Positions 13,650-64,000 of a DNA stretch of 64,000 bases are shown piece by piece. The position numbers and the translations under genes are program-made. Position 1 is the stretch's first letter. Every line of letters starts with the position of its first letter. The notes beneath the pieces were generated by a model. It was given only the letters and a program-made list of their open reading frames with translations. It was not told the DNA's origin and ran no database searches. The DNA comes from Melioribacteraceae bacterium (GTDB taxonomy: Bacteria > Bacteroidota > Ignavibacteria > Ignavibacteriales > Melioribacteraceae): assembly GCA_024103215.1 (NCBI GenBank), contig JAGFIY010000039.1, positions 1 through 64,000 of the forward strand. Reading direction: 5' to 3'.

Positions 13650-15281
13650 ATGAAAAAGTTCTTATTTGCAATTCTTTTTACGCTAGTATTTTTAACTTCT
13701 CAAGCAGAAGCAAGACCGCACAGAGTCGGCCAGATTCCAAACGGATCAAAAAACAGTTGTGCAAACTGCCATATTAACCCTGCTGGAGGTGGAGAGAGAA
13801 ACGATTTTGGAAAATTAGTTGAAGCCAGATTTCTTGATGTTGTTAGTCCGGCCGGAAATGTTCAATGGGGACCAGCAATTGCTCATCTTGATGCGGATGG
13901 AGACGGCGTATCTAACGGTCTTGAACTGCAAGATGAGTTTGGTATGTGGCAGAGCGGACAGGTAAATCCCGGAAATTCAAGTTTAGTCTCTCTGCCCGGT
14001 TTAAATTCGAGTAATCCGCTAACTCCGGTAACAATAAATTTTTCCGATATGGAACCGCATTTAAACCAAACTTTATTTATAAGAATTGTAGATATAGCTA
14101 ATTCATCTGAAATGGGGAGGAGGAGCGAGAGTATAAATTCATCGGAATTTGATGTTGTTCTGCAGGCAATTATCCCCGGCAGAAGTTATTTCATTGATTT
14201 TTTTGCAGATGCAAACTCAAATGGTTTCTACGATCCTCCTCCAACAGATCATACTTGGAGGTTAGAGCTTAACAATGCCTCGGGAAACGATGTTCTTGAT
14301 TTTTCACATAATACTTCCTTCACGGATATAGATTGGCAATATACTGCAACAATAAATTTCTCATCGATGAACCCTCATTTAAATCAACTTATTGAATTAA
14401 GAGCAGTCGATCAACTGACCGGTACAGAAGCGGGGAGAAGCAGATTAGAAAGAATTACTACAAATGAATTCTCCATGTTACTTACAGGTCTTGAGGCTGA
14501 TAGGGATTATGACATTGAATTTTATGCGGATTTAAATGGTGACGGTAATTATGATCCTCCGCCGGTTGATCATGCTTGGAAGATTAACACTTCTACTAAT
14601 CTCGGCAGCACTGAAATAAACTTTTCTCATAATACGGATTTTCATGATATCGCTTGGGACTATGTTATCACTGTTGATTTCACTGAAATGTCTCCTCACA
14701 TAGATCAGCTTTTTGAGTTAAGAGTTGTGGAACAAGCTTCAGCAACAGAGATTGGGAGAACAAGATTTGATAGGGTTCCGGGTTCAGCTTTTTCTACCAC
14801 AGTCAGCGGAATCGAACCCGGTAAATCGTATAATATTGATTTTTATGCAGACTTAAATGCTAGCGGTCAGTACGATCCTCCGCCGACAGATCACGCTTGG
14901 AGAATTAACTTTAATGCTGCAGAAGGAAATAATTTTAAGATCTTTTCCCATAACACAAACTTTACTGATATTGAGTGGCCTGATGTTACATCCGTTGATG
15001 GAGATGAATTTACGGTTAATGAATTCAAACTTTTTCAAAATTATCCAAATCCTTTTAATCCGGAAACAACAATTAAATTTGTACTGAATAAAAATCAACA
15101 CACATCATTAGCTATCTACGATATGCTCGGGCGAGAAACAGTTGTGCTGCTGAATGAATTTTTAACTTCAGGTAATTATTCAATACGGTTTAGCGCTGAA
15201 AATTTACCAAGCGGCGTCTATTTGTACAGATTAAAATCGGGAAGTTCAACAAAATCAAAGAAAATGATTTTATTGCGATAA
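13650..15281 (+). CDS. Secreted CxxCH protein with three 106-residue repeats and T9SS sorting domain
   Basis: Exported protein of 543 residues with a Sec signal peptide (1-21). The mature N-terminus has one heme-c type motif, CANCH (37-41), followed by NPAGGGERNDFG. Next comes a calcium-binding loop, DADGDGVSNGLE. Three tandem repeats follow (127-232, 233-339, 340-446), each ending in DLN..G.YDPPP.DHAW and then FSHNT.F.DI.W. The C-terminus carries a type A T9SS sorting domain (NYPNPFNP, then LYRLKSG and a basic end), so it should be exported to the cell surface. Heme attachment would need periplasmic maturation before T9SS export, which is not demonstrated. It lies 8 bases after the DUF2892 gene. 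Biochemical role unknown. Confidence 0.88.
   Translation: MKKFLFAILFTLVFLTSQAEARPHRVGQIPNGSKNSCANCHINPAGGGERNDFGKLVEARFLDVVSPAGNVQWGPAIAHLDADGDGVSNGLELQDEFGMWQSGQVNPGNSSLVSLPGLNSSNPLTPVTINFSDMEPHLNQTLFIRIVDIANSSEMGRRSESINSSEFDVVLQAIIPGRSYFIDFFADANSNGFYDPPPTDHTWRLELNNASGNDVLDFSHNTSFTDIDWQYTATINFSSMNPHLNQLIELRAVDQLTGTEAGRSRLERITTNEFSMLLTGLEADRDYDIEFYADLNGDGNYDPPPVDHAWKINTSTNLGSTEINFSHNTDFHDIAWDYVITVDFTEMSPHIDQLFELRVVEQASATEIGRTRFDRVPGSAFSTTVSGIEPGKSYNIDFYADLNASGQYDPPPTDHAWRINFNAAEGNNFKIFSHNTNFTDIEWPDVTSVDGDEFTVNEFKLFQNYPNPFNPETTIKFVLNKNQHTSLAIYDMLGRETVVLLNEFLTSGNYSIRFSAENLPSGVYLYRLKSGSSTKSKKMILLR
14028..14987 (+). repeat. Three tandem in-frame repeats of about 318-321 bases
   Basis: Protein-level repeats with starts at 14028, 14346 and 14667. 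The units are diverged in DNA but clearly aligned in protein, for example FADANSNGFYDPPPTDH, YADLNGDGNYDPPPVDH and YADLNASGQYDPPPTDH. The Asp/Asn-rich core resembles a calcium-binding loop. The unit looks like a beta-sandwich adhesin or carbohydrate-binding module, but I cannot name the family. Confidence 0.85.
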
Positions 15282-39556: not shown

Positions 39557-40795
39557 ATGAATTCATATCTGTTTGAGTTGAAAGAGGGATTAATTATCTC
39601 CTTTAAAGCTATTAGAGCAAATAAGGTGAGATCGATTCTAACAACTCTCGGAATAATTATCGGTGTCTGGGCAGTAGTTACAATGTCAACCGCTATAAAA
39701 GGAATTGATCTGGCTTTTCAAAGCGGTGTTTCCTCCCTCGGATCCGATAATTTATACATAGATAAATGGGCTTGGTTTACTAACGACACTCCATGGTGGG
39801 AATTAAGAAACAGAAAGAATCTTGACATGGAGGATTATGAAAGATTTGTTAGTCTTGCCGAACTTCCACTTGCAGTTGCACCAAGTATGTTTTCGAGAGA
39901 AACGGTTAAACATGAAGATAAAGCTTTGGAGTTTATAAATATTACTGGTACAACTCACAACTACTTGGAAACAACAAACCTAGTAATGGAAGAAGGAAGA
40001 TTTTTTAACGAACTCGAAAGCGACGGAAACAGAAACGTCATAGTTCTTGGCAGCGAAGTGAATAAGAAATTGTTTCCGCTGGGGAATGGATTGGGAAATT
40101 ATGTGAGAGTAAAAGGTCAAAAATTGAAGGTCGTCGGCATCCTCGAGGAACAAGGAAGCTGGGTTATGGGGAACTTCAATCCCGATAATCAGGTTTTTGT
40201 ACCTATAGGATTTGTTTTCAAATATCTGCAAAGGGAATCTTTCGGTAGTATTACAATAAACGTCCGCGCACCAAACAGTACTATGGTTGAACCCGTTAAG
40301 GAAGAAGCTATTGGTATTATGCGCCGCGTCCGAGGATTGTCCTACGATCAACCCGACGACTTTTCAATCAATCAACAAGAAGGTCTTTTGTCCGAAATCA
40401 ATAGCACGATAGGTGTGATTCAAATAGCTGGTTTATTCATTACAGGACTTTCACTTTTCGTTGGAGCAATAGGAATTATGAATATTATGTTCGTTTCGGT
40501 CAAAGAAAGAACAAAAGAAATTGGTATCCGAAAAGCAATAGGCGCTAAGAGGCGAACAATTCTCGGTCAGTTTATTTCCGAATCGGCAGTTATTTGTCTT
40601 TTAGGCGGCACAATAGGATTAGGCTTGGCTGTGCTTACTAGTTTTATTATTAACCAATTTCTCCCCACAGCGGTTCAAATTGATGCGGTTTTCCTTGCAA
40701 TAATCATTTCAATATTGACGGGAGTATTATCGGGATTTGCTCCAGCATATACCGCTGCTAAAATGGATCCCGTAGATGCATTGAGGTATGAATAA
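39557..40795 (+). CDS. MacB/FtsX-type ABC permease, paralog 1
   Basis: A 412-residue permease with the four-TM MacB layout. TM1 lies near 22-45 after SFKAIRANKVRSILTTLGIIIG. A large periplasmic MacB_PCD domain (about 50-270) follows, and three TM helices sit near the end. VKERTKEIGIRKAIGAKRRTIL is the cytoplasmic coupling segment. The C-terminus DPVDALRYE is characteristic. The periplasmic domain differs clearly from the next two paralogs (it has a Trp-rich DNLYIDKWAWFTNDTPWWE stretch), suggesting a distinct role. Its stop overlaps the start of the next gene by one base. Confidence 0.94.
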   Translation: MNSYLFELKEGLIISFKAIRANKVRSILTTLGIIIGVWAVVTMSTAIKGIDLAFQSGVSSLGSDNLYIDKWAWFTNDTPWWELRNRKNLDMEDYERFVSLAELPLAVAPSMFSRETVKHEDKALEFINITGTTHNYLETTNLVMEEGRFFNELESDGNRNVIVLGSEVNKKLFPLGNGLGNYVRVKGQKLKVVGILEEQGSWVMGNFNPDNQVFVPIGFVFKYLQRESFGSITINVRAPNSTMVEPVKEEAIGIMRRVRGLSYDQPDDFSINQQEGLLSEINSTIGVIQIAGLFITGLSLFVGAIGIMNIMFVSVKERTKEIGIRKAIGAKRRTILGQFISESAVICLLGGTIGLGLAVLTSFIINQFLPTAVQIDAVFLAIIISILTGVLSGFAPAYTAAKMDPVDALRYE

Positions 40796-42027
40796 TGAAA
40801 ATAACTGAAACTGTAAAAGTTGCAATATCTTCGCTGCACGCCAATAGATTGCGTTCAACATTAACTATGCTTGGAATAATCGTTGGAATCTTTTCGATAA
40901 TTTCTATAAGCACTGTTATAAGTATGCTTCAGTCCAGCATTGAGGATGGAGTATCTGCGCTTGGGAAGAATGTTTTTCAGATTCAAAAGTGGCCTATTGT
41001 TCAGATGTCCCGGCAAGAACGAATGAAGTTGATGCGCAACAGAAGCGATATAACGATAGAAGAATTTTATAGACTTAAGGAATCCTTAACAGCCGCAAAA
41101 GCCGTTGGAGCCGAACAGTGGGGATTCGGCAAGCGGTTTGAATACGGCAACAAGGAGACAAATCCTAATGTCAGTTTATCCGGAACTTCACCCGAGGCTT
41201 TTGCCAATAACGGTTGGGTTGTTAGAGATGGCAGAGAATATAATTACCGTGACATAGAAAGAAGCGAGCGAATAATTGTTCTTGGTGCCGATGTTGCAAA
41301 AACATTGTTCCCGTTTGAAGATCCGATCGGCAAAGAGGTTAAGGTTGACGGACATAAACTTAAGGTAATAGGAGTTCTCGAAAGCCAAGGTGCATTCTTT
41401 GGGCAGAGTCAGGATAATTTTGCACTTATGCCTCTTTCGACTTTTCAGAATTTTTACGGCAAACGTAACAATAGCATTAACATTACCGTGTCTTCCTTCG
41501 GGAAAGAGGATTATGAGGAACTGATTGAAATTGCTACAGGTCATTTCAGAACAATAAGAAAAGTACCTCCGGGTGAACCGGATGACTTTACGATAAGAAC
41601 AAACCAGGCAATACTTGATCAAATCAACGAAACTACAGCTGGTGTTCGAATAGGTGCGTTCGTTGTTGCGGGTATTGCACTTCTCGCCGCGGGTATTGGG
41701 ATAATGAACATTATGCTTGTCTCTGTCACCGAAAGGACAAAAGAGATCGGAATAAGAAAAGCGATAGGTGCTAAAAGGAAAAATATCCTAACTCAATTTT
41801 TAGTTGAGGCAGTAACACTCTCGATTTTGGGTGGATTAGTTGGTATCTTCCTGGGTGTATTAGCGGGAAACATTGCAGGAAGCTTTCTGCAAGCTGCGGC
41901 AGTAGTGCCTGTAGACTGGATTGCAATAGGAGTAACATTATGTGTCGCGATCGGTGTTACTTTCGGAACCTATCCTGCATATAAAGCTGCTAACCTGGAT
42001 CCGATTGATGCTCTTAGATACGAATAA
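40795..42027 (+). CDS. MacB/FtsX-type ABC permease, paralog 2
   Basis: A 410-residue MacB-type permease. The coupling motif is VTERTKEIGIRKAIGAKRKNIL and the end is NLDPIDALRYE. It starts at the ATG overlapping the upstream TAA (TAATG), so translation is coupled. It is strikingly similar to paralog 3 throughout, including the periplasmic domain (FGQSQDNFA, KVPPGE). The two probably arose by a fairly recent tandem duplication. It may form a heterodimer with paralog 1 or 3 on the shared ATPase. Confidence 0.94.
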   Translation: MKITETVKVAISSLHANRLRSTLTMLGIIVGIFSIISISTVISMLQSSIEDGVSALGKNVFQIQKWPIVQMSRQERMKLMRNRSDITIEEFYRLKESLTAAKAVGAEQWGFGKRFEYGNKETNPNVSLSGTSPEAFANNGWVVRDGREYNYRDIERSERIIVLGADVAKTLFPFEDPIGKEVKVDGHKLKVIGVLESQGAFFGQSQDNFALMPLSTFQNFYGKRNNSINITVSSFGKEDYEELIEIATGHFRTIRKVPPGEPDDFTIRTNQAILDQINETTAGVRIGAFVVAGIALLAAGIGIMNIMLVSVTERTKEIGIRKAIGAKRKNILTQFLVEAVTLSILGGLVGIFLGVLAGNIAGSFLQAAAVVPVDWIAIGVTLCVAIGVTFGTYPAYKAANLDPIDALRYE

Positions 42028-42065
42028 CCAGATCGAAAGGATAATTTAAAATCGTTAAAATATAA

Positions 42066-43289
42066 ATGGAAATTTTAAGACTTGCTCTAAGCTCTCTTAG
42101 AGTAAATAAATTAAGATCCTCACTTACAATCCTTGGAATTGTAGTGGGGATTTTCTCAATTATTACTATAAGTACAGTTATTGAGATGCTTCAGAACAGC
42201 ATCGAATCCGGTGTCTCCCAGCTGGGTAAAAATACTTTTCAAATTCAAAAATTTCCCGTTATGCTTGAAGGTGGGCATGGGGCAAGAGCCAAGTATCGAA
42301 ACAGAGCAGATCTTACTATCGAACATTACGAACGCTTAAAAACACTTCTTCCCGAAGCAAAATCTATTGGTGCGGAACAATGGAATTTTGGGAAAGTTTT
42401 TAAGTATTTAAGCAACGAAACCAATCCAAATGTTTCGTTTTGCGGCGCAACTCATGAATCATTTGAAAACAATAATTGGGTAATTTCTTCAGGAAGAGTT
42501 TTCAATGAAAGAGATTTACACCGTTATGAAAAAATCGTGATACTAGGGGCTGATGTTGCTAAAACTTTGTTTGAATACCAAGACCCTATTGGGAAAGAGT
42601 TAAGAGTAGATGGTTATAAACTTAAGGTGATAGGCGTGCTCGAAAGTCAAGGTGCGGTTTTCGGTCAAAGTCAGGATAACTTTGCGGTTACTCCCATTAC
42701 TACTTTTCAAAACATATATGGAAAACGGAACCGGAGCATTAACATTACAGTTACCGCCTGGGATAAAGAATCTTACGATGAACTTATTGACCGGGCAACT
42801 GGTGCAATGCGAATTATAAGGAAAGTTCCACCGGGAGAAGATGACGATTTCGGTATCTTCTCAAATGCATCAATACTTGAACAGATAAACGATATAACCG
42901 CGGGCACCCGAATCGGCTCGATTGTTGTCGGGATGATTGCGCTTCTCGCGGCTGGTGTGGGTATTATGAACATTATGTTGGTCACTGTAACCGAAAGAAC
43001 TAAAGAGATAGGAATTCGGAAAGCAGTGGGAGCAAAAAAATCAAATGTTCTTTTTCAATTTTTGTTTGAAGCCATTTTCTTATCACAGATCGGTGGATTT
43101 ATTGGTATCGTACTCGGGGTTATTGCTGGAAATTTAGCAGGATCATTCCTTAACGCGGCAGTAGCAATTCCTTTGGATTGGATTATTATTGGAGTAATTC
43201 TTTGTGTTATTATCGGAGTTACTTTTGGAACATACCCGGCATATAAAGCTGCAAATCTTGATCCGATCGAAGCCCTTAGATTTGAATAA
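42066..43289 (+). CDS. MacB/FtsX-type ABC permease, paralog 3
   Basis: A 407-residue MacB-type permease, close paralog of the gene just upstream. Shared features include LGIVVGIFSI, ISTVIEMLQNSIESGVS, GKNTFQIQKFPVM, KVPPGEDDDF and the end NLDPIEALRFE. The gap of 38 bases and weak ribosome site suggest lower or separate translation. It is the last gene of the efflux set. About 97 bases separate it from the large surface-protein gene; an imperfect hairpin near 43350-43377 could attenuate read-through. Confidence 0.93.
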   Translation: MEILRLALSSLRVNKLRSSLTILGIVVGIFSIITISTVIEMLQNSIESGVSQLGKNTFQIQKFPVMLEGGHGARAKYRNRADLTIEHYERLKTLLPEAKSIGAEQWNFGKVFKYLSNETNPNVSFCGATHESFENNNWVISSGRVFNERDLHRYEKIVILGADVAKTLFEYQDPIGKELRVDGYKLKVIGVLESQGAVFGQSQDNFAVTPITTFQNIYGKRNRSINITVTAWDKESYDELIDRATGAMRIIRKVPPGEDDDFGIFSNASILEQINDITAGTRIGSIVVGMIALLAAGVGIMNIMLVTVTERTKEIGIRKAVGAKKSNVLFQFLFEAIFLSQIGGFIGIVLGVIAGNLAGSFLNAAVAIPLDWIIIGVILCVIIGVTFGTYPAYKAANLDPIEALRFE

Positions 43290-57625: not shown

Positions 57626-59812
57626 TTGAAATTCCGCTATTCTATAATTATACCTACTTATAATAGAGCTAACTCGCTTTTGCCGCTTGTAAATACAATT
57701 ATTGAATTGAATAAGGATAATCAAGAGGTAGAGATAATAATTGTTGATGATGGAAGTACAGACAATACATCGGAGATAATTAGTAAGATCGAATACGACC
57801 ATTTACGTTATCTTCAGATTGAAAACAGCGGGCCAGCTTTTGCAAGAAACCGCGGCGCAGAAATCGCTAAAGGAGATTTTTTAATTTTTATTGATGATGA
57901 TTGCATACCTGCGAAAAATTATTTTTTAATATTGAATCAAACAATTGAATCAAATTCTTACGATGCTTTCGGCGGACAAAGCAAGAATAAAATCGCAGAA
58001 AATAAATTAGCAGAGTTCTACGATAAAATTAACTCTTTCTATTTTTCGAATCAGCACAACAATAACAAATTTTTGATGTCGAATAACATGATCTGCAAAC
58101 GCGATATTTTTTGGGAAGAATCTGGTTTTGACGAAAGATTTACTATCGGTGCGGAGGACAGGGAACTCGCTATCAGGCTAGCGGATAAGCAATATAAAGT
58201 TGGATTTGTTGAAGAGCTTTCTGTGAATCATTACCATGATTTTTCGCTGCGGTCATTTTTGTTTCAGTATTATAAATTCGGTAGAGGATCTTATTTGCTT
58301 TATGATGTAATCTCAAAGGAGAATAATTACAAGATTGCGCGAATAAATCATCTCAAACAATTCTTCAATATTTATTGTGCGTTAAGGAAAGATCAAAACA
58401 TCACGGAAAAGTTCACATATTTTTTAATATTACTTCTTTCACAACTGTTTACAGCTTTCGGCTATGTGAGTGCAAAATGGGAGGGCATTAAAGACTTAAG
58501 GGATGAGAAATCTGACTCTGCCAAAACATTTACATCCGGCAGAAAAGGTACAGTTATAGGACTTTTCTCCTTTCTCGGTGGAAATCTTTTTAGCTCGGTG
58601 CTGGGATTTGCAACATTTATAATTTTGGGAAAATACCTGGAACTTGAGCAATTCGGAAATTTTATGATTGCCTTTTCTCTACTTACTATTATAAGCAAAT
58701 TTACGAATTTCGGGTTACCGATTAGTGTTACAAGATATGCCTCCGATTCAGTCAAATTACGCGACAAAGAAAAAACTTCCTTTATACTAAAAAATGGAAT
58801 TTTTATTCAAAGCATTGTACTGTTTTTATCTCTTTTGATTTTTCTTTTACTTAATCATTTTCTTGAAGGTGAAATTGAAGCCTTCAAGCTTCCTGTGATG
58901 ATTAAGTACGGAATAGCTATCGGTATTGTTTCGACAACTTTGTTTGATTTTTTCTTGATTATTTATTCTATTCAATTGGAGTACTTAAAAATTGCTTTTA
59001 TAAATAACTTAGTTGCCTTCCTTCGACTTACGTCTGTCCTATTGCTAATAATCATTCTGAAACCGAATGCCGGAATATTATTTTGGGCATATGCCGGGTC
59101 CGGGCTTATTGGTGCAATAATTTTAAGTATAAAATATTTCTCTAATATTGTACCTTCTTCAAAGATTAATTTCGAAGAAATCAAAAAACTTCTGAAATAC
59201 GGAAGCTTTGAGACAGTAACAGGAATTTCGAGACAGATAATAAGCAACGGCGGGCCATTGATACTCGCATCACTCTCTACTAAAGCCGAAGCCGGACTAT
59301 ACGGTATTGGCATGAGTTTAAGTTTTGTTTACAGTGTTATCGCATTGAATATAAGATCATATTTTTTCCCTATCGGGTCACGTTTAATTTCGAATGATAC
59401 AATAATCCCTTTTATAAGACGTACTGTTAGATTGACACTTCCTCTTTTCTTTTTGGGAATTATAAGTTTAATTATTGCTAAACCTATTTTGGAAAGTTTC
59501 TATTCCGAATCAAAAGCCGAAGCTTATCCTGTATTCGTACTTTTATCATTACCGGCAATTCTTAAGCTATTTTTCAGTTCGCTGCTTATTTTACTTCATT
59601 ACTACTTTAAGCCGCAATACATAGCATACGAAGCTTTCGGCAGATCGATTTTATTTTTAATCATTGCTTTTATTGTCTCGGGTTATGGGGCAATTGGTGT
59701 TGCATCGGCATTGCTGTTAACAAGTTTAATCGGAGTGGGGGTTATACTTTATTTGGTTCACAACGAATTAAAAAAGAATTACTTGAGGCTGAAGGACGGA
59801 TTAAGATTTTAA
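57626..59812 (+). CDS. Fusion of family-2 glycosyltransferase and polysaccharide flippase
   Basis: A continuous 728-residue frame with two distinct parts. Residues 1-290 are a GT-A glycosyltransferase: SIIIPTYNR, VDDGSTDN (Asp41/42), ARNRGAE, IDDDCIP (metal site Asp90-92) and GAEDRELAIRL. Residues about 305-728 are an MVF/Wzx-like flippase with about 12-14 TM helices (GLFSFLGGNLFSSVLGFATFIILGK, LEQFGNFMIAFSL). A single chain would add a sugar to a lipid carrier on the inner leaflet and flip the product. The start is TTG with a good ribosome site. It overlaps the convergent sulfotransferase gene by 4 bases. Independent, separately encoded proteins are the usual arrangement, so a frame-check is worthwhile. 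Confidence 0.88.
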   Translation: MKFRYSIIIPTYNRANSLLPLVNTIIELNKDNQEVEIIIVDDGSTDNTSEIISKIEYDHLRYLQIENSGPAFARNRGAEIAKGDFLIFIDDDCIPAKNYFLILNQTIESNSYDAFGGQSKNKIAENKLAEFYDKINSFYFSNQHNNNKFLMSNNMICKRDIFWEESGFDERFTIGAEDRELAIRLADKQYKVGFVEELSVNHYHDFSLRSFLFQYYKFGRGSYLLYDVISKENNYKIARINHLKQFFNIYCALRKDQNITEKFTYFLILLLSQLFTAFGYVSAKWEGIKDLRDEKSDSAKTFTSGRKGTVIGLFSFLGGNLFSSVLGFATFIILGKYLELEQFGNFMIAFSLLTIISKFTNFGLPISVTRYASDSVKLRDKEKTSFILKNGIFIQSIVLFLSLLIFLLLNHFLEGEIEAFKLPVMIKYGIAIGIVSTTLFDFFLIIYSIQLEYLKIAFINNLVAFLRLTSVLLLIIILKPNAGILFWAYAGSGLIGAIILSIKYFSNIVPSSKINFEEIKKLLKYGSFETVTGISRQIISNGGPLILASLSTKAEAGLYGIGMSLSFVYSVIALNIRSYFFPIGSRLISNDTIIPFIRRTVRLTLPLFFLGIISLIIAKPILESFYSESKAEAYPVFVLLSLPAILKLFFSSLLILLHYYFKPQYIAYEAFGRSILFLIIAFIVSGYGAIGVASALLLTSLIGVGVILYLVHNELKKNYLRLKDGLRF

Positions 59813-60822
59813 ATCATCTTTTTAATTTTATTTGAAGTATTAATTAACCCAATTCTCTTAAATAAATCGACTAAAAAATATTTGACTTTATTTTTCTTTT
59901 TCTGAGGAATTCTCGAAAGTAAGTATGTGGAGAAATAATAATCTACTACATCAAAAATTCCAATTTTTTTTACTCGGCTATGTTTTAATTTTTCATTAAG
60001 TTTTTCTTTCGTCAAGTCGCATTCGAGGATGAAACTTTCATCGATTCCTTTTAGATACTTAATTGCGTTTGATTTTTTGTACTTCGAATCAAATGTTGAA
60101 ATCCATTTATCTATCGATTTAGTGTTAACTTCTGAACCTGGAGTGTTTCCAATTTTTTCCCAGTTATACTTACCGCCCAACTTAACATTCGAAAAGTTTT
60201 GTAATATTTCATCTTCAAATTCTAGTTTGAGATAAGAAAAAATTTGTCGCAAAGTTTCTTCAGGTGATTTTACAAGTTCATCATAAACTACTTTCAATGA
60301 ACGACTACTTAATTTTCTGTAAGCTGCCGCTAAAAATTTTGGGGCTGCTTTTATGTCACGAATCAAATATTTGCTTGAAATAAATTTTCTATTGTACCAT
60401 GTATTCATTATCGAAGCATATACCGAGAGCGGGTTCCTAAACAAGAAAATGAACTTTGCTTCAGGAAATACCTTCGCAATTTCATCAATTTTGTGATAAT
60501 AATTAGGAGTTTTGTCAACAAAATAAATTTCTCCGGATTCCCTTTTTTTTAAATATACGTTTGAAATAAATTTTCCCAATTCACTAAGGTAATCATCACG
60601 ATTTCCGGGAAGACTTTCTAAAAACTCTTTTATTGCATTTCTTGCACGTTCTTCGTTGTAATATAAATTTTTCCCAAGTTCATCAGGATTCAACAATGGG
60701 AGAAGCAACCACGGCTCTGCAAAAGTAGCTATCTTTGAGTGTGCGGCAAGCAGTTTTTGAAGCAGGGTCGAACCTGATCGCGGCATAGAAAAGATGAAAA
60801 TAATGTTAGCATCCTGCTGCAA
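59809..60822 (-). CDS. Sulfotransferase, paralog 1
   Basis: A 337-residue PAPS-dependent sulfotransferase-fold protein. The 5'-phosphosulfate loop is MPRSGSTLLQKLLAAH near the N-terminus. The 3'-phosphate loop is FLFRNPLSVYASI, preceded by FVDKTPNYYHKID. It carries a sulfate group from PAPS to a sugar hydroxyl or similar acceptor. The start is TTG at 60822, whose ribosome site AGAGGT overlaps the end of paralog 2. It is the third gene of a three-gene run and overlaps the convergent fusion gene by 4 bases. It is of a different subtype from paralogs 2 and 3. Confidence 0.9.
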   Translation of the reverse strand: MQQDANIIFIFSMPRSGSTLLQKLLAAHSKIATFAEPWLLLPLLNPDELGKNLYYNEERARNAIKEFLESLPGNRDDYLSELGKFISNVYLKKRESGEIYFVDKTPNYYHKIDEIAKVFPEAKFIFLFRNPLSVYASIMNTWYNRKFISSKYLIRDIKAAPKFLAAAYRKLSSRSLKVVYDELVKSPEETLRQIFSYLKLEFEDEILQNFSNVKLGGKYNWEKIGNTPGSEVNTKSIDKWISTFDSKYKKSNAIKYLKGIDESFILECDLTKEKLNEKLKHSRVKKIGIFDVVDYYFSTYLLSRIPQKKKNKVKYFLVDLFKRIGLINTSNKIKKMI

Positions 60823-60824
60823 TT

Positions 60825-61670
60825 TTACCTCTTATTCCAAAACTTATTTTCGATACCAAGAAAATTAAAAAGATTTTCATTTGGCACTTTAAAATAATCA
60901 TAAAGCAAAAATTCTGTCTCACTGTTCATTACATCTGTTGAATATTTGGTCAGGAGAAAATCATGCGCACGTCTAAAAAATTTTATCTTTCCGAGTGGAC
61001 TATTTTTAAAAATATAATTTTCCTTCAAACTCAAAGGCATCTTTCCAACATATCTCGGAGATTTATAAATCCTTGTTAATTTTATTCCCGGATCAACATC
61101 CAAAAAATTGAATATCCGCTTCATCACTTTTTCGGGATTGTTTTTCATTTCTTCAAGAATTACAAAATGCATCTGTTCCCGATCGAAAAATTTTAAGTAT
61201 CTCTCAATCTGTTCTAAATATAAACCTCGAGTTTTATAGGAAAAATATTTCTTTTCGTATAATCCCTTTAAAATTCTTTCTTCTTCGAAATTAAGAGCAT
61301 CGGCAAAATTTTTTGTTTCTCTTCCGGCACGCACTTCCATTTTGTAGTGCGATAAAGCTCTGTTAACCGGATTACGCAGCATAAAAATCAATTTGATTTC
61401 GGGAAACATATCAAAAATTCTTTTAGGTACATTTTTGAGATACATATATAGCGGTGAACATTCTCCGATTGCTTTTTCATTTTTGCGTTTAATAAATTGC
61501 TTTTCGTACCAATTTCTGCCGAGCGCATATCTTTCGTCGTTGTCAAAAAAATGAATTTCCTTTTTTGGATACAAAAATATATCGGGATGTTCCCTTAAGT
61601 AAAAATCCATGGAAGTTGTACCGGCTTTTTGTGCCCCGACAATTAAAAATGTGGGTGAATGTGTGCTCAT
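60825..61670 (-). CDS. Sulfotransferase, paralog 2 (heparan-sulfotransferase-like)
   Basis: A 281-residue sulfotransferase of the type related to heparan N-/3-O-sulfotransferases. The P-loop is VGAQKAGTTSMDFYL with the invariant Lys-Ala-Gly-Thr-Thr. KKEIHFFDND follows, the usual catalytic-region block. The 3'-phosphate loop is IFMLRNPVNRALSHYKMEV. RGLYLEQIERYLKFFDREQ is also typical. It is encoded two bases before paralog 1 and one base after paralog 3. The acceptor is probably a polysaccharide or glycolipid made by the neighbouring glycosyltransferases; that is inference. Confidence 0.93.
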   Translation of the reverse strand: MSTHSPTFLIVGAQKAGTTSMDFYLREHPDIFLYPKKEIHFFDNDERYALGRNWYEKQFIKRKNEKAIGECSPLYMYLKNVPKRIFDMFPEIKLIFMLRNPVNRALSHYKMEVRAGRETKNFADALNFEEERILKGLYEKKYFSYKTRGLYLEQIERYLKFFDREQMHFVILEEMKNNPEKVMKRIFNFLDVDPGIKLTRIYKSPRYVGKMPLSLKENYIFKNSPLGKIKFFRRAHDFLLTKYSTDVMNSETEFLLYDYFKVPNENLFNFLGIENKFWNKR

Positions 61671-61671
61671 G

Positions 61672-62505
61672 TTATTTCCAACCGCTTAAATCCCGGTTGA
61701 TCATAATCGATAATTCTTCGTTTGATTGGCGAAACATGTTCTGAAGATATTCTCTTGCCTTTTGAGGTATTTCTACTTTTCCCGGTTTGAGAGCAAATTT
61801 ATCAAATACTTTATAAAAGCCCGGAATACGGTTAAGGAAACTTTTTTTTACCCTTCTTGCTAACACAGGATTTTTTGAAATTTTTGCTTCATTGTACCGA
61901 GACGAAAACATATCCTCCGAAAAAATTTCTTTTACGTTTAGGAAAACAAAAATCTCATTCATCGCTTTTAATATATTTCCTCTTAAATCCTCTAATAATA
62001 AAATCTTGATTTGATCTTCGTTGAAAATTTCCAGATAGCGACTTATCTGTTTTGCATACATTCCTCTCTCAACATAAGAAAATTTTCTTAGCTCTCTTTC
62101 GTTTTTAACTATTCTTTTCTTTTCCGAAATTAATGCGTTCAGAAAATCTTTATCCTCTAGTCCTCTTCTCACCATATGCTGATAATGAGACCAGGCTCTT
62201 TCAATAGGGTTTCTAACGATAAAAATAAGTTTTACGTTTGGGATGATTTTCTTAATCCGTGGCGGAACTTTTTCCAATAGCATATATCCCGGTGTTATTT
62301 CACCGTTAATTATATCACTTCCGAAAAACTTGAAATGCTTTTTATACCATTCGATTCCTTTGCCAAAATTTTTATCATCATCGAAAAAATGTACTTCCTT
62401 TTTTTTGTACATAGAAATCTGCGGATGCTTGTTCAAATAATGAAATAATGAAGTTGAACCTGCTTTCATTGCACCGCAAACCAGAAAATCGGGAAGCTTT
62501 CTCAT
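61672..62505 (-). CDS. Sulfotransferase, paralog 3 (heparan-sulfotransferase-like)
   Basis: A 277-residue paralog of the gene just downstream. The P-loop is CGAMKAGSTSLFHYL, KKEVHFFDDD follows, and the 3'-phosphate loop is IFIVRNPIERAWSHYQHMV. The shared order and spacing of motifs with paralog 2 suggest a tandem duplication followed by divergence. The two may therefore sulfate different positions. First gene of the minus-strand run, divergent from the family-4 glycosyltransferase across an 83-base gap. Confidence 0.93.
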   Translation of the reverse strand: MRKLPDFLVCGAMKAGSTSLFHYLNKHPQISMYKKKEVHFFDDDKNFGKGIEWYKKHFKFFGSDIINGEITPGYMLLEKVPPRIKKIIPNVKLIFIVRNPIERAWSHYQHMVRRGLEDKDFLNALISEKKRIVKNERELRKFSYVERGMYAKQISRYLEIFNEDQIKILLLEDLRGNILKAMNEIFVFLNVKEIFSEDMFSSRYNEAKISKNPVLARRVKKSFLNRIPGFYKVFDKFALKPGKVEIPQKAREYLQNMFRQSNEELSIMINRDLSGWK

Positions 62506-62588
62506 CTCTAATCGTAATTTGTTTATATTAGTAATAGATTTTATAAGTGGATTCTAATCTAATAAAATAGTCAGAACATAAACAGAAG
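62506..62588. promoter_or_regulatory. Divergent promoter region for the sulfotransferase run and the GT4 gene
   Basis: 83 AT-rich bases between divergent starts, so promoters for both directions must lie here or overlap the coding ends. No clear consensus, operator or hairpin was seen. Confidence 0.4.
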
Positions 62589-63788
62589 ATGGCGTTAAAA
62601 AGAAAAATCTTATTTGTTTACAGCGACTTGAACAGCGGTGGAATAACAAAAGTTATAAAAAATATATTGAGGTATATGGATTATAACACATTTGAAATCA
62701 CACTTCTTCTGTATAATCTTCCGGACTACAATCCTTTTCCGACTCAAGTTAGAATTATAAGCATCAATAAACCTCAGCGAAGAGGGATTGGACAAGTAAT
62801 TGATTTTTTTTTACGTGCGAGAGCTATTGCAGAAAAAATAGAAAGTTTGGATCCGGAAATTGTCTTTTCACATTTTAACAGGGTAAACGTAAATGTTTTG
62901 TTTGCAAAACGTTACTTGAAGTTTATTAAGCCGAAATTTATCGCGGTCGAACATACATCTCCCGCTGCGGAGTTTAGTTATTCTCTCTCTGAAATGTTTA
63001 AGAGAATTTATCATTATCCGGACAACGGGATGTTGATAAATTTACTCTATATCCTATCAAATAAATTATTAAAACAATTTATAAAGAGATATTATCCAAT
63101 AGCGGATTTAATAATATCAGTCTCAGAGGGTATCAAAGCAGAACTAGAAAACTCATTTCATGTTGATGGGGAAAAGATAAAAGTTGTTCATAACCCCGTG
63201 GATAAAAACGAAATTGAAAATCTTTCCGAGGAAGTTACTGGGATCAGTCTAGAAAAGGGAGTTATAAATATTGTAACTGCCGGCAGATTAGAAAGACAGA
63301 AGGATCACAAAACATTGATAGAAGCGTTTTCAATTTTCGCCAAAGAATATAATTCTCATTTGTTTATTATCGGTGAAGGAAGTTATAAGAAATTTCTTCG
63401 AGAGCTTATTGAAAAAAAGCAGCTGAACGAGAAGGTGACATTAACGGGATATCTCGATAATCCGTATCCTTTAATCAAAACTGCGGATATATTTGTTTTA
63501 AGTTCAATTTATGAAGGTTTCGGCTTAGTACTTGTAGAAAGCATGTTTTTGGGCACACCTGTTATATCCACTGACTGTAAGTCAGGTCCGGGAGAGATAG
63601 TGCAGAACGGTGAAAACGGAATGTTGGTCACGGTTGGAAAGCCGGCTGAAATTTATCAAGCATTAAAGCAGATTGCAGAAAATTCCGAACTGTCTAAAAC
63701 AATTGTCGAAAATGCGAAGAAACGAGCAGATGATTTCAGTGCTGAAAAAATAACCTCCGATTATGAAGAAATTTTAAAGTTATTATGA
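62589..63788 (+). CDS. Family-4 glycosyltransferase
   Basis: A 399-residue GT-B retaining glycosyltransferase. The N-terminal domain begins KILFVYSDLNSGGITKVIKNIL. The C-terminal nucleotide-sugar domain is diagnostic: TAGRLERQKDHKTLIEAF, then FVLSSIYEGFGLVLVESM with the EX7E motif, and GTPVISTDCKSGPGEIV. It builds a surface glycan from nucleotide sugars. Its stop overlaps the next gene by four bases (ATGA), so the sulfotransferase that follows is translated with it. Confidence 0.94.
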   Translation: MALKRKILFVYSDLNSGGITKVIKNILRYMDYNTFEITLLLYNLPDYNPFPTQVRIISINKPQRRGIGQVIDFFLRARAIAEKIESLDPEIVFSHFNRVNVNVLFAKRYLKFIKPKFIAVEHTSPAAEFSYSLSEMFKRIYHYPDNGMLINLLYILSNKLLKQFIKRYYPIADLIISVSEGIKAELENSFHVDGEKIKVVHNPVDKNEIENLSEEVTGISLEKGVINIVTAGRLERQKDHKTLIEAFSIFAKEYNSHLFIIGEGSYKKFLRELIEKKQLNEKVTLTGYLDNPYPLIKTADIFVLSSIYEGFGLVLVESMFLGTPVISTDCKSGPGEIVQNGENGMLVTVGKPAEIYQALKQIAENSELSKTIVENAKKRADDFSAEKITSDYEEILKLL

Positions 63789-64000
63789 AAAAAGTTATAC
63801 TTAAAAATAAGTTTGACCAATTCCGGAAATATTCGCCGCTGGCTGTTAAGCGTGGTTTAATCTCCCTCAAACTTCTTAAAGGGAAAAACCTTCTAACCAA
63901 ATTTGTAATCATCGGCGCTCCACGTACGGGTTCAAATTTGCTGATGTCACTTTTAAACTCACATCCCAACTGCCTGTGTTACGGTGAGATCTTCACAAAT
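63785..64000 (+). CDS. Sulfotransferase, 3' end cut by the window edge
   Basis: An open frame of 72 codons from ATG at 63785 to the window end, not closed by a stop. Residues 44-60 read IIGAPRTGSNLLMSLLN, the 5'-phosphosulfate loop of sulfotransferases, followed by SHPNCLCYGEIF. It starts inside the GT4 stop (ATGA), so it is coupled to that gene. A fourth sulfotransferase in this locus, on the other strand from the first three. The family call is good, but only the first loop is visible. Confidence 0.82.
   Translation, partial: MKKVILKNKFDQFRKYSPLAVKRGLISLKLLKGKNLLTKFVIIGAPRTGSNLLMSLLNSHPNCLCYGEIFTN

Follow-up and report, generated by a model that had tools for sequence, protein, structure and literature searches.

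Very few bacterial pathways for sulfated polysaccharides have been characterised genetically, with synechan as the model case, and the sulfated glycosaminoglycan-like polymers of microbial granules are without assigned producers (PMC7356697, PMC10483923). The xss locus for synechan in Synechocystis sp. PCC 6803 encodes two sulfotransferases (STs), eight glycosyltransferases (GTs), a Wzy polymerase and a co-polymerase (PMC8205485, PMC13125312). In the anaerobe Pontiella sulfatireligans F21, a sulfated exopolymer has been demonstrated chemically, and an ST gene lies among GT2 and GT4 genes in a putative sulfated glycosaminoglycan cluster (PMC7356697). Our literature searches for STs in Ignavibacteria, the class considered here, led nowhere. 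In this study, we describe a glycan locus at the right end of a 64,000-nucleotide stretch from a Melioribacteraceae bacterium (the window; bases 1-64000 of contig C95, which spans 94,720 bp and whose numbering is kept for coordinates beyond 64000). The host assembly is a 3.2 Mb draft in 186 contigs (99.9% complete), and this single draft genome underlies our reading of the locus. On the basis of its gene content, the locus probably makes a surface glycan that is sulfated in the cytoplasm before flipping and is probably also O-acylated.

The locus contains all four genes of the 3.2 Mb genome that match the ST families PF00685 or PF13469. Because the four fall within 4.8 kb, their clustering is not a product of chance. 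Each encodes a Pfam ST domain that scores above the cut-off. ST-A (61672..62505, minus strand; PF00685, E = 1.5e-16) and ST-B (60825..61670, minus strand; PF00685, E = 8.6e-20) are paralogs with 47% identity over 187 aa. ST-C (59809..60822, minus strand; Sulfotransfer_3, E = 2.3e-35) resembles NoeE, tyrosylprotein sulfotransferases (TPSTs) and CurM. ST-D (63785..64624, plus strand; 279 aa; Sulfotransfer_3, 46 bits against a cut-off of 27) is a distant, weak relative of Stf0 and NodH; only its first 72 codons (63785..64000) lie inside the window, and the frame is complete 0.6 kb beyond. The first-pass annotation had listed a GT2-flippase fusion, three packed STs, a GT4 enzyme and a partial fourth ST; Pfam recovers every one of them, with the fourth ST complete at 64624. 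A KAGTT type for all four STs is ruled out by the motifs of ST-C and ST-D. The 5´-phosphosulfate loop reads KAG[ST]TS only in ST-A (KAGST) and ST-B (KAGTT), PRSGST in ST-C and PRTGSN in ST-D. In alignments covering ST-A, ST-B and ST-C, the 3´-phosphate motif is RNPxxRAxSHY in the KAGTT pair and FRNPLSVYAS in ST-C. ST-A and ST-B also carry KE[IV]HFFD. The P-loop, the Glu and His of KE[IV]HFFD and the RNPxxRAxSHY motif of the pair are kept between two genera and largely kept across 31 homologs. No membrane segment was found in any of the four STs by a hydropathy scan, which fits cytoplasmic use of 3´-phosphoadenosine 5´-phosphosulfate (PAPS).

The nearest solved relatives of ST-A and ST-B are an Alicyclobacillus sulfotransferase (3rnl), the human heparan sulfate 3-O-sulfotransferases (3-OSTs) and the heparan sulfate N-sulfotransferase NDST1. 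For ST-B, the likeness to 3-OST and NDST is observed in both sequence and predicted fold. In a Foldseek search, the ST-B model (31 sequences, pLDDT 93.5) matches 3rnl with an E-value of 1e-16, the 3-OSTs mostly with about 1e-12 to 1e-11, and NDST1 with about 1e-11 to 4e-9; the matches include 3-OST structures with bound 3´-phosphoadenosine 5´-phosphate. Against a span of 2e-12 to 4e-9 for 3-OST and NDST1 taken together, the tyrosine and cytosolic STs (TPST/SULT) follow well behind, at 7e-6 or weaker. By its predicted fold, ST-B is closer to the heparan-sulfate type of ST than to the TPST and SULT classes. Relatives of this pair occur in diverse settings. A plasmid of another Synechocystis strain encodes an ST-B family member (29% identity) next to genes for an O-antigen ligase and a lipopolysaccharide glycosyltransferase, and KAGTT ST genes of Henriciella adjoin a CysN-like gene. 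A contig labelled as a Thermofilaceae archaeon encodes a KAGTT ST that is 43% identical to ST-B (L144:9989-10816), which reflects either transfer or mis-binning. ST clusters, described as uncommon in the first-pass annotation, are not very rare, since, of 80 loci retrieved using the KAGTT pair, 18 contain at least two STs and 6 contain three.

The arrangement of the locus recurs in parts among relatives. In a member of the same family but another genus (G032, 'Chlorobiota bacterium isolate M_MetaBat.63'), one partial ortholog cluster on a 3.2 kb contig (JAADIR010000140.1) contains a GT4 homolog (39% identity) divergent from ST-A, ST-B and ST-C, whose order is unchanged and whose identities are 50%, 55% and 50%, respectively (49–50% for ST-C). 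In a genome from another family of the class (G311), homologs of the GT2-flippase fusion (34% identity, residues 4-722) and of two proteins encoded downstream of it in the host, GT2b (46%) and a TMEM260-like protein (32%), lie side by side, uninterrupted by any ST. Because G032 holds one unit and G311 the other, two sub-modules exist separately: a sulfation unit (GT4 with ST-A, ST-B and ST-C) and a GT2-flippase/GT2b/GT-C unit. The host locus looks like a sulfation cassette set into an older glycan module, a direction of joining that we infer. In loci of family f23, GT2b and a GT2 similar to the N-terminal half of the fusion bracket further GT2s and a putative ABC-2 type exporter with its ATPase, an arrangement whose predicted functions point to glycan export. 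MBOAT acyltransferase genes, two of which lie downstream in the host, are likewise found near STs. In one genome (G031), which has a true CysC, two STs flank an SGNH-like gene and an MBOAT gene whose product is 47% identical to MBOAT1, and putative CDP-sugar synthesis genes are adjacent; in a Saprospiraceae contig (L123), an MBOAT gene lies 2.6 kb from an ST gene.

The fusion gene (57626..59812, plus strand; 728 aa) begins the locus on the left. Its product combines a Glycos_transf_2 domain (E = 1.4e-30, residues 6-163) with a Wzx/MATE-type Polysacc_synt domain (E = 6e-18, residues 313-586), both far above cut-off. An assembly artefact is ruled out by the full-length fusion homolog in G311. 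The end of the fusion gene overlaps the 3´ end of ST-C by 4 bp, tail to tail, and ST-C, ST-B and ST-A follow one another on the minus strand with spacings of 1-2 bp. The GT4 gene (62589..63788, plus strand; Glycos_transf_1, E = 2.1e-41) is divergent from this ST operon, the position that it also occupies in G032, and is overlapped by the start of ST-D by 4 bp. Scans for promoters and terminators returned signals no more frequent than chance. The G+C content of the locus is 31-36%, compared with 37.1 ± 2.5% per kb on its left side, a difference too small for proof of transfer. The genes left of 57,550 read as housekeeping. Three tandem MacB-like permease genes of the ATP-binding cassette type are located elsewhere in the window (39557-43289), and the last two are closely alike by eye.

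As the first-pass annotation had anticipated, the locus continues past the window, and it does so with more glycan genes, all on the plus strand. GT2b (about 64710-65702) has membrane segments and homologs of 337-340 aa. Its listed start, a GTG at 64806, cuts the conserved N-terminus; the open frame upstream contains a CTG at 64710 with a spaced GGAG, which is probably the true start. GT2b is followed by a TMEM260-like (PF11028) GT-C protein with a TPR tail (65644-67662), MBOAT1 (67680-69137), a first SGNH-like protein (69137-70144), an acyl-CoA ligase (70181-71653), MBOAT2 (71650-73062) and a second SGNH-like protein (73064-74116). Both SGNH-like proteins are assigned by motifs and position only; neither has a Pfam match, and the second is also without a match in the PDB. 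No close relative of the ligase was detected at E 1e-70 in 293 genomes of the class. The locus ends after 74116, where a DUF5698/DUF2179 protein is followed by putative housekeeping genes, among them those for protein-L-isoaspartate methyltransferase and MiaA.

A mechanism can be proposed on the model of the general Wzx scheme, as for synechan (PMC8205485). Gene identities, co-localisation, the conservation of the two sub-modules and the folds of two STs were computed, and we infer the order of steps, the substrates and the division of labour among the STs. At the inner membrane face, GT4, the GT2 domain and further glycosyltransferases would assemble a lipid-carried oligosaccharide, and there the four soluble PAPS-dependent STs of three subfamilies would sulfate it. 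The probable targets of the KAGTT pair are amino sugars or hydroxyls next to them; other hydroxyls would be left to the NoeE-like and Stf0-like STs. Because cytoplasmic PAPS-dependent STs must act before export, the sulfated unit would be completed on the inner face and then flipped across the membrane by the Wzx-like domain fused to GT2. On the outside, the TMEM260-like GT-C enzyme may add a sugar from a polyprenyl-phosphate donor supplied by GT2b, and the MBOAT/SGNH pairs may add acyl groups. Genes on other contigs would serve for priming, polymerisation and outer-membrane export; alternatively, the end product may be a short glycan that stays on lipid or protein. The exported sulfated surface glycan put forward in the first-pass annotation is favoured by the gene content, the ST-B fold, the conserved GT4/ST-A/B/C unit and an enrichment of APS kinase among ST-bearing relatives, described below; polymer genes do not follow. 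A broader proposal remains rather doubtful: a glycan sulfated at multiple positions and acylated, outside cyanobacteria, made by an architecture not described before, in which a GT2-flippase and TMEM260-like GT-C core holds the GT4/four-ST cassette, with a PAPS branch regulated by a CysN bearing a conserved pseudo-APS-kinase domain. If this proposal is true, such a cell could be one producer of the sulfated, glycosaminoglycan-like polymers that mixed microbial granules contain.

Several observations, set out in this and the next two paragraphs, weigh against a sulfated surface glycan. No polymerase, co-polymerase or chain-length, priming GT or nucleotide-sugar gene is present among the locus genes, in the window or downstream. 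Because ST-D is not followed by polymerase, chain-length or nucleotide-sugar genes, a polymer is only a candidate product. Such genes, which the first-pass annotation had suggested looking for, are found on other contigs. The end of contig C99 carries Wza, a Wzz-like gene and a UDP-sugar epimerase/decarboxylase-type gene; a cluster on contig C135 contains Bac_transf, DegT, GT2, GT4, Wzy_C, a methyltransferase, GT9 and a MurJ-like flippase; and contig C132 encodes a further Wzy_C protein. A module without a polymerase would also suit a short sulfated O-glycan attached to proteins that are secreted or sit in the outer membrane, or one that anchors cargo of type IX secretion. In animals, GT-C enzymes of the TMEM260-like kind act as protein O-mannosyltransferases (PMC11292533), and Halobacterium glycoproteins carry sulfated short glycans made with two different STs (PMC11980604). 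In addition, a secreted protein encoded in the window (13650-15281), which has CxxCH close to the N-terminus, three repeats and, by eye, a C-terminal sorting-type domain, suggests type IX secretion cargo in the host. This O-glycan alternative is nevertheless unlikely, as the locus contains no oligosaccharyltransferase, genes of the Wza, Wzz and Wzy types are present in the host genome, and the putative exporter of the f23 loci fits O-antigen or exopolysaccharide.

The substrate of ST-C is a further point of doubt for the surface glycan. ST-C matches the NoeE model with an E-value of 1.8e-19, which is below the model cut-off, and its own predicted model, built from six sequences with a moderate pLDDT of 70.8, aligns best with TPSTs (Z 17.2) and with the CurM and olefin-synthase STs (Z 17). 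Natural-product STs are its closest PDB sequences. No close relative of ST-C was returned at E 1e-15 by a sample that did not report G032, and its best plasmid match sits in a gene set containing an amidinotransferase and a carbamoyltransferase. Among relatives, ST domains are found inside giants similar to nonribosomal peptide synthetases (NRPSs), such as L108:5963-8962 (minus strand; a PP-binding domain, two ST stretches and a condensation domain), and other genomes of group g3 have NRPS-like frames of 2000-3400 aa with ST domains. Given these NRPS-type STs and the natural-product neighbours in the PDB, ST-C need not act on sugar. One or more STs, above all ST-C, might even sulfate a lipid or small metabolite, with the nearby glycan genes only partly linked to them. 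We consider this very unlikely, because the locus contains no NRPS or polyketide synthase gene and ST-C shares its operon with two heparan-sulfate-type STs and is kept with GT4 in G032.

The supply of PAPS is the third point that counts against the proposed glycan. Adenosine 5´-phosphosulfate (APS) kinase was matched only once in the assembly, by the C-terminal portion of a CysN-type GTPase (CysN'; contig C135, L013:6844-8634, minus strand). Its neighbours are CysQ, an aminotransferase of the DegT family, a regulator of the Rrf2 type and a permease of the PHO4/PiT family, and nucleotide-sugar-type genes lie together with them on this contig. Compared with the true CysC of relatives, the kinase domain of CysN' has GKK for GKS and LGIG for LDGD, and the lid segment is deleted. 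The P-loop, LDGD and lid of APS kinase have been assigned to ATP and Mg binding and catalysis (PMC4373884). Because these elements are altered identically in four genomes and the rest of the domain is well conserved, the domain is most likely a conserved pseudo-kinase and not a decaying one, judging from the alignment. A non-catalytic APS-kinase-like domain is also present in fungal ATP sulfurylase, which the pseudo-domain of CysN' recalls. No intact APS kinase or true CysC was detected elsewhere in the host assembly, and a PF01507 search returned neither CysD nor CysH. The first-pass annotation would have given up its sulfated glycan if the genome had no PAPS-making enzyme at all; the draft goes halfway towards that outcome, with CysN' and CysQ present, CysD absent and the only APS-kinase domain apparently inactive.

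These absences would leave the STs non-functional if no PAPS were made, an explanation that we regard as highly improbable. The four ST frames are open with their motifs kept, and the frame of CysN' is unbroken, with 67-68% identity to homologs, although CysN does not work without CysD. In two relatives (G004 and G057), this CysN' is encoded in one operon together with CysQ, CysD, a true CysC and a fusion of DUF2061 to an APS kinase; because of this CysC and CysD, their PAPS would not depend on the kinase domain of CysN'. The fusion (L101:3540-4259, minus strand; L102:4839-5558) stands beside the normal CysC and CysD as a second, membrane-linked APS kinase. Contig C135 ends within 1 kb of cysN' (97.6 kb end), and the G032 contig with cysD ends just upstream of that gene. 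Since CysN needs CysD and C135 breaks off so close to cysN', an assembly gap is a likelier cause of the missing CysD and CysC than true absence. Two small genes of the four-helix-bundle type (S23-like, by eye) flank cysD in G032 (L100:192-554 and 1536-1895). Across 70 genomes of the family, a full-length APS kinase is present in 10 of the 15 that bear STs and in 6 of the 55 others (Fisher P = 3.7e-5, uncorrected for kinship, with some of the STs being NRPS domains), which links APS kinase to STs in the host's family and is no proof for the host genome itself.

With four STs from three subfamilies beside a defined export module, the locus is a compact system open to testing. It would let the position served by each enzyme be assigned and would supply new STs related to those of heparan sulfate; its usefulness is limited by the draft genome and the lack of a cultured host. 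Individual components resemble several known systems. Like DltB/DltD-type O-acylation, the locus has an MBOAT with an SGNH-like partner, here twice, and an AMP ligase. The MBOATs, however, score 139.5 and 144.6 bits against a DltB cut-off of 375, no DltC-type carrier was noticed, and the ligase ranks with acyl-CoA ligases. ST-C and ST-D are below the family cut-offs of rhizobial NoeE/NodH and mycobacterial Stf0, and are relatives of these enzymes, not members. ST-A and ST-B share sequence motifs with 3-OST and NDST, and the predicted ST-B fold matches, but identity by structure alignment is 21-26% and the host STs are bacterial and soluble. In Pontiella, which belongs to a different phylum, one of the three noted ST genes lies in the cluster, whereas all four STs are together in the host. 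In contrast to synechan, the host locus has four STs, which belong to three subfamilies, together with a fused GT2-flippase, two MBOAT/SGNH pairs and a TMEM260-like enzyme, and it lacks Wzy, the co-polymerase and a priming GT. Synechan is the closest characterised system to the host locus: both combine more than one ST of distinct subfamilies with GTs, numerous in synechan, and a Wzx-type flippase, and in both the outer-membrane export gene is located elsewhere in the genome.

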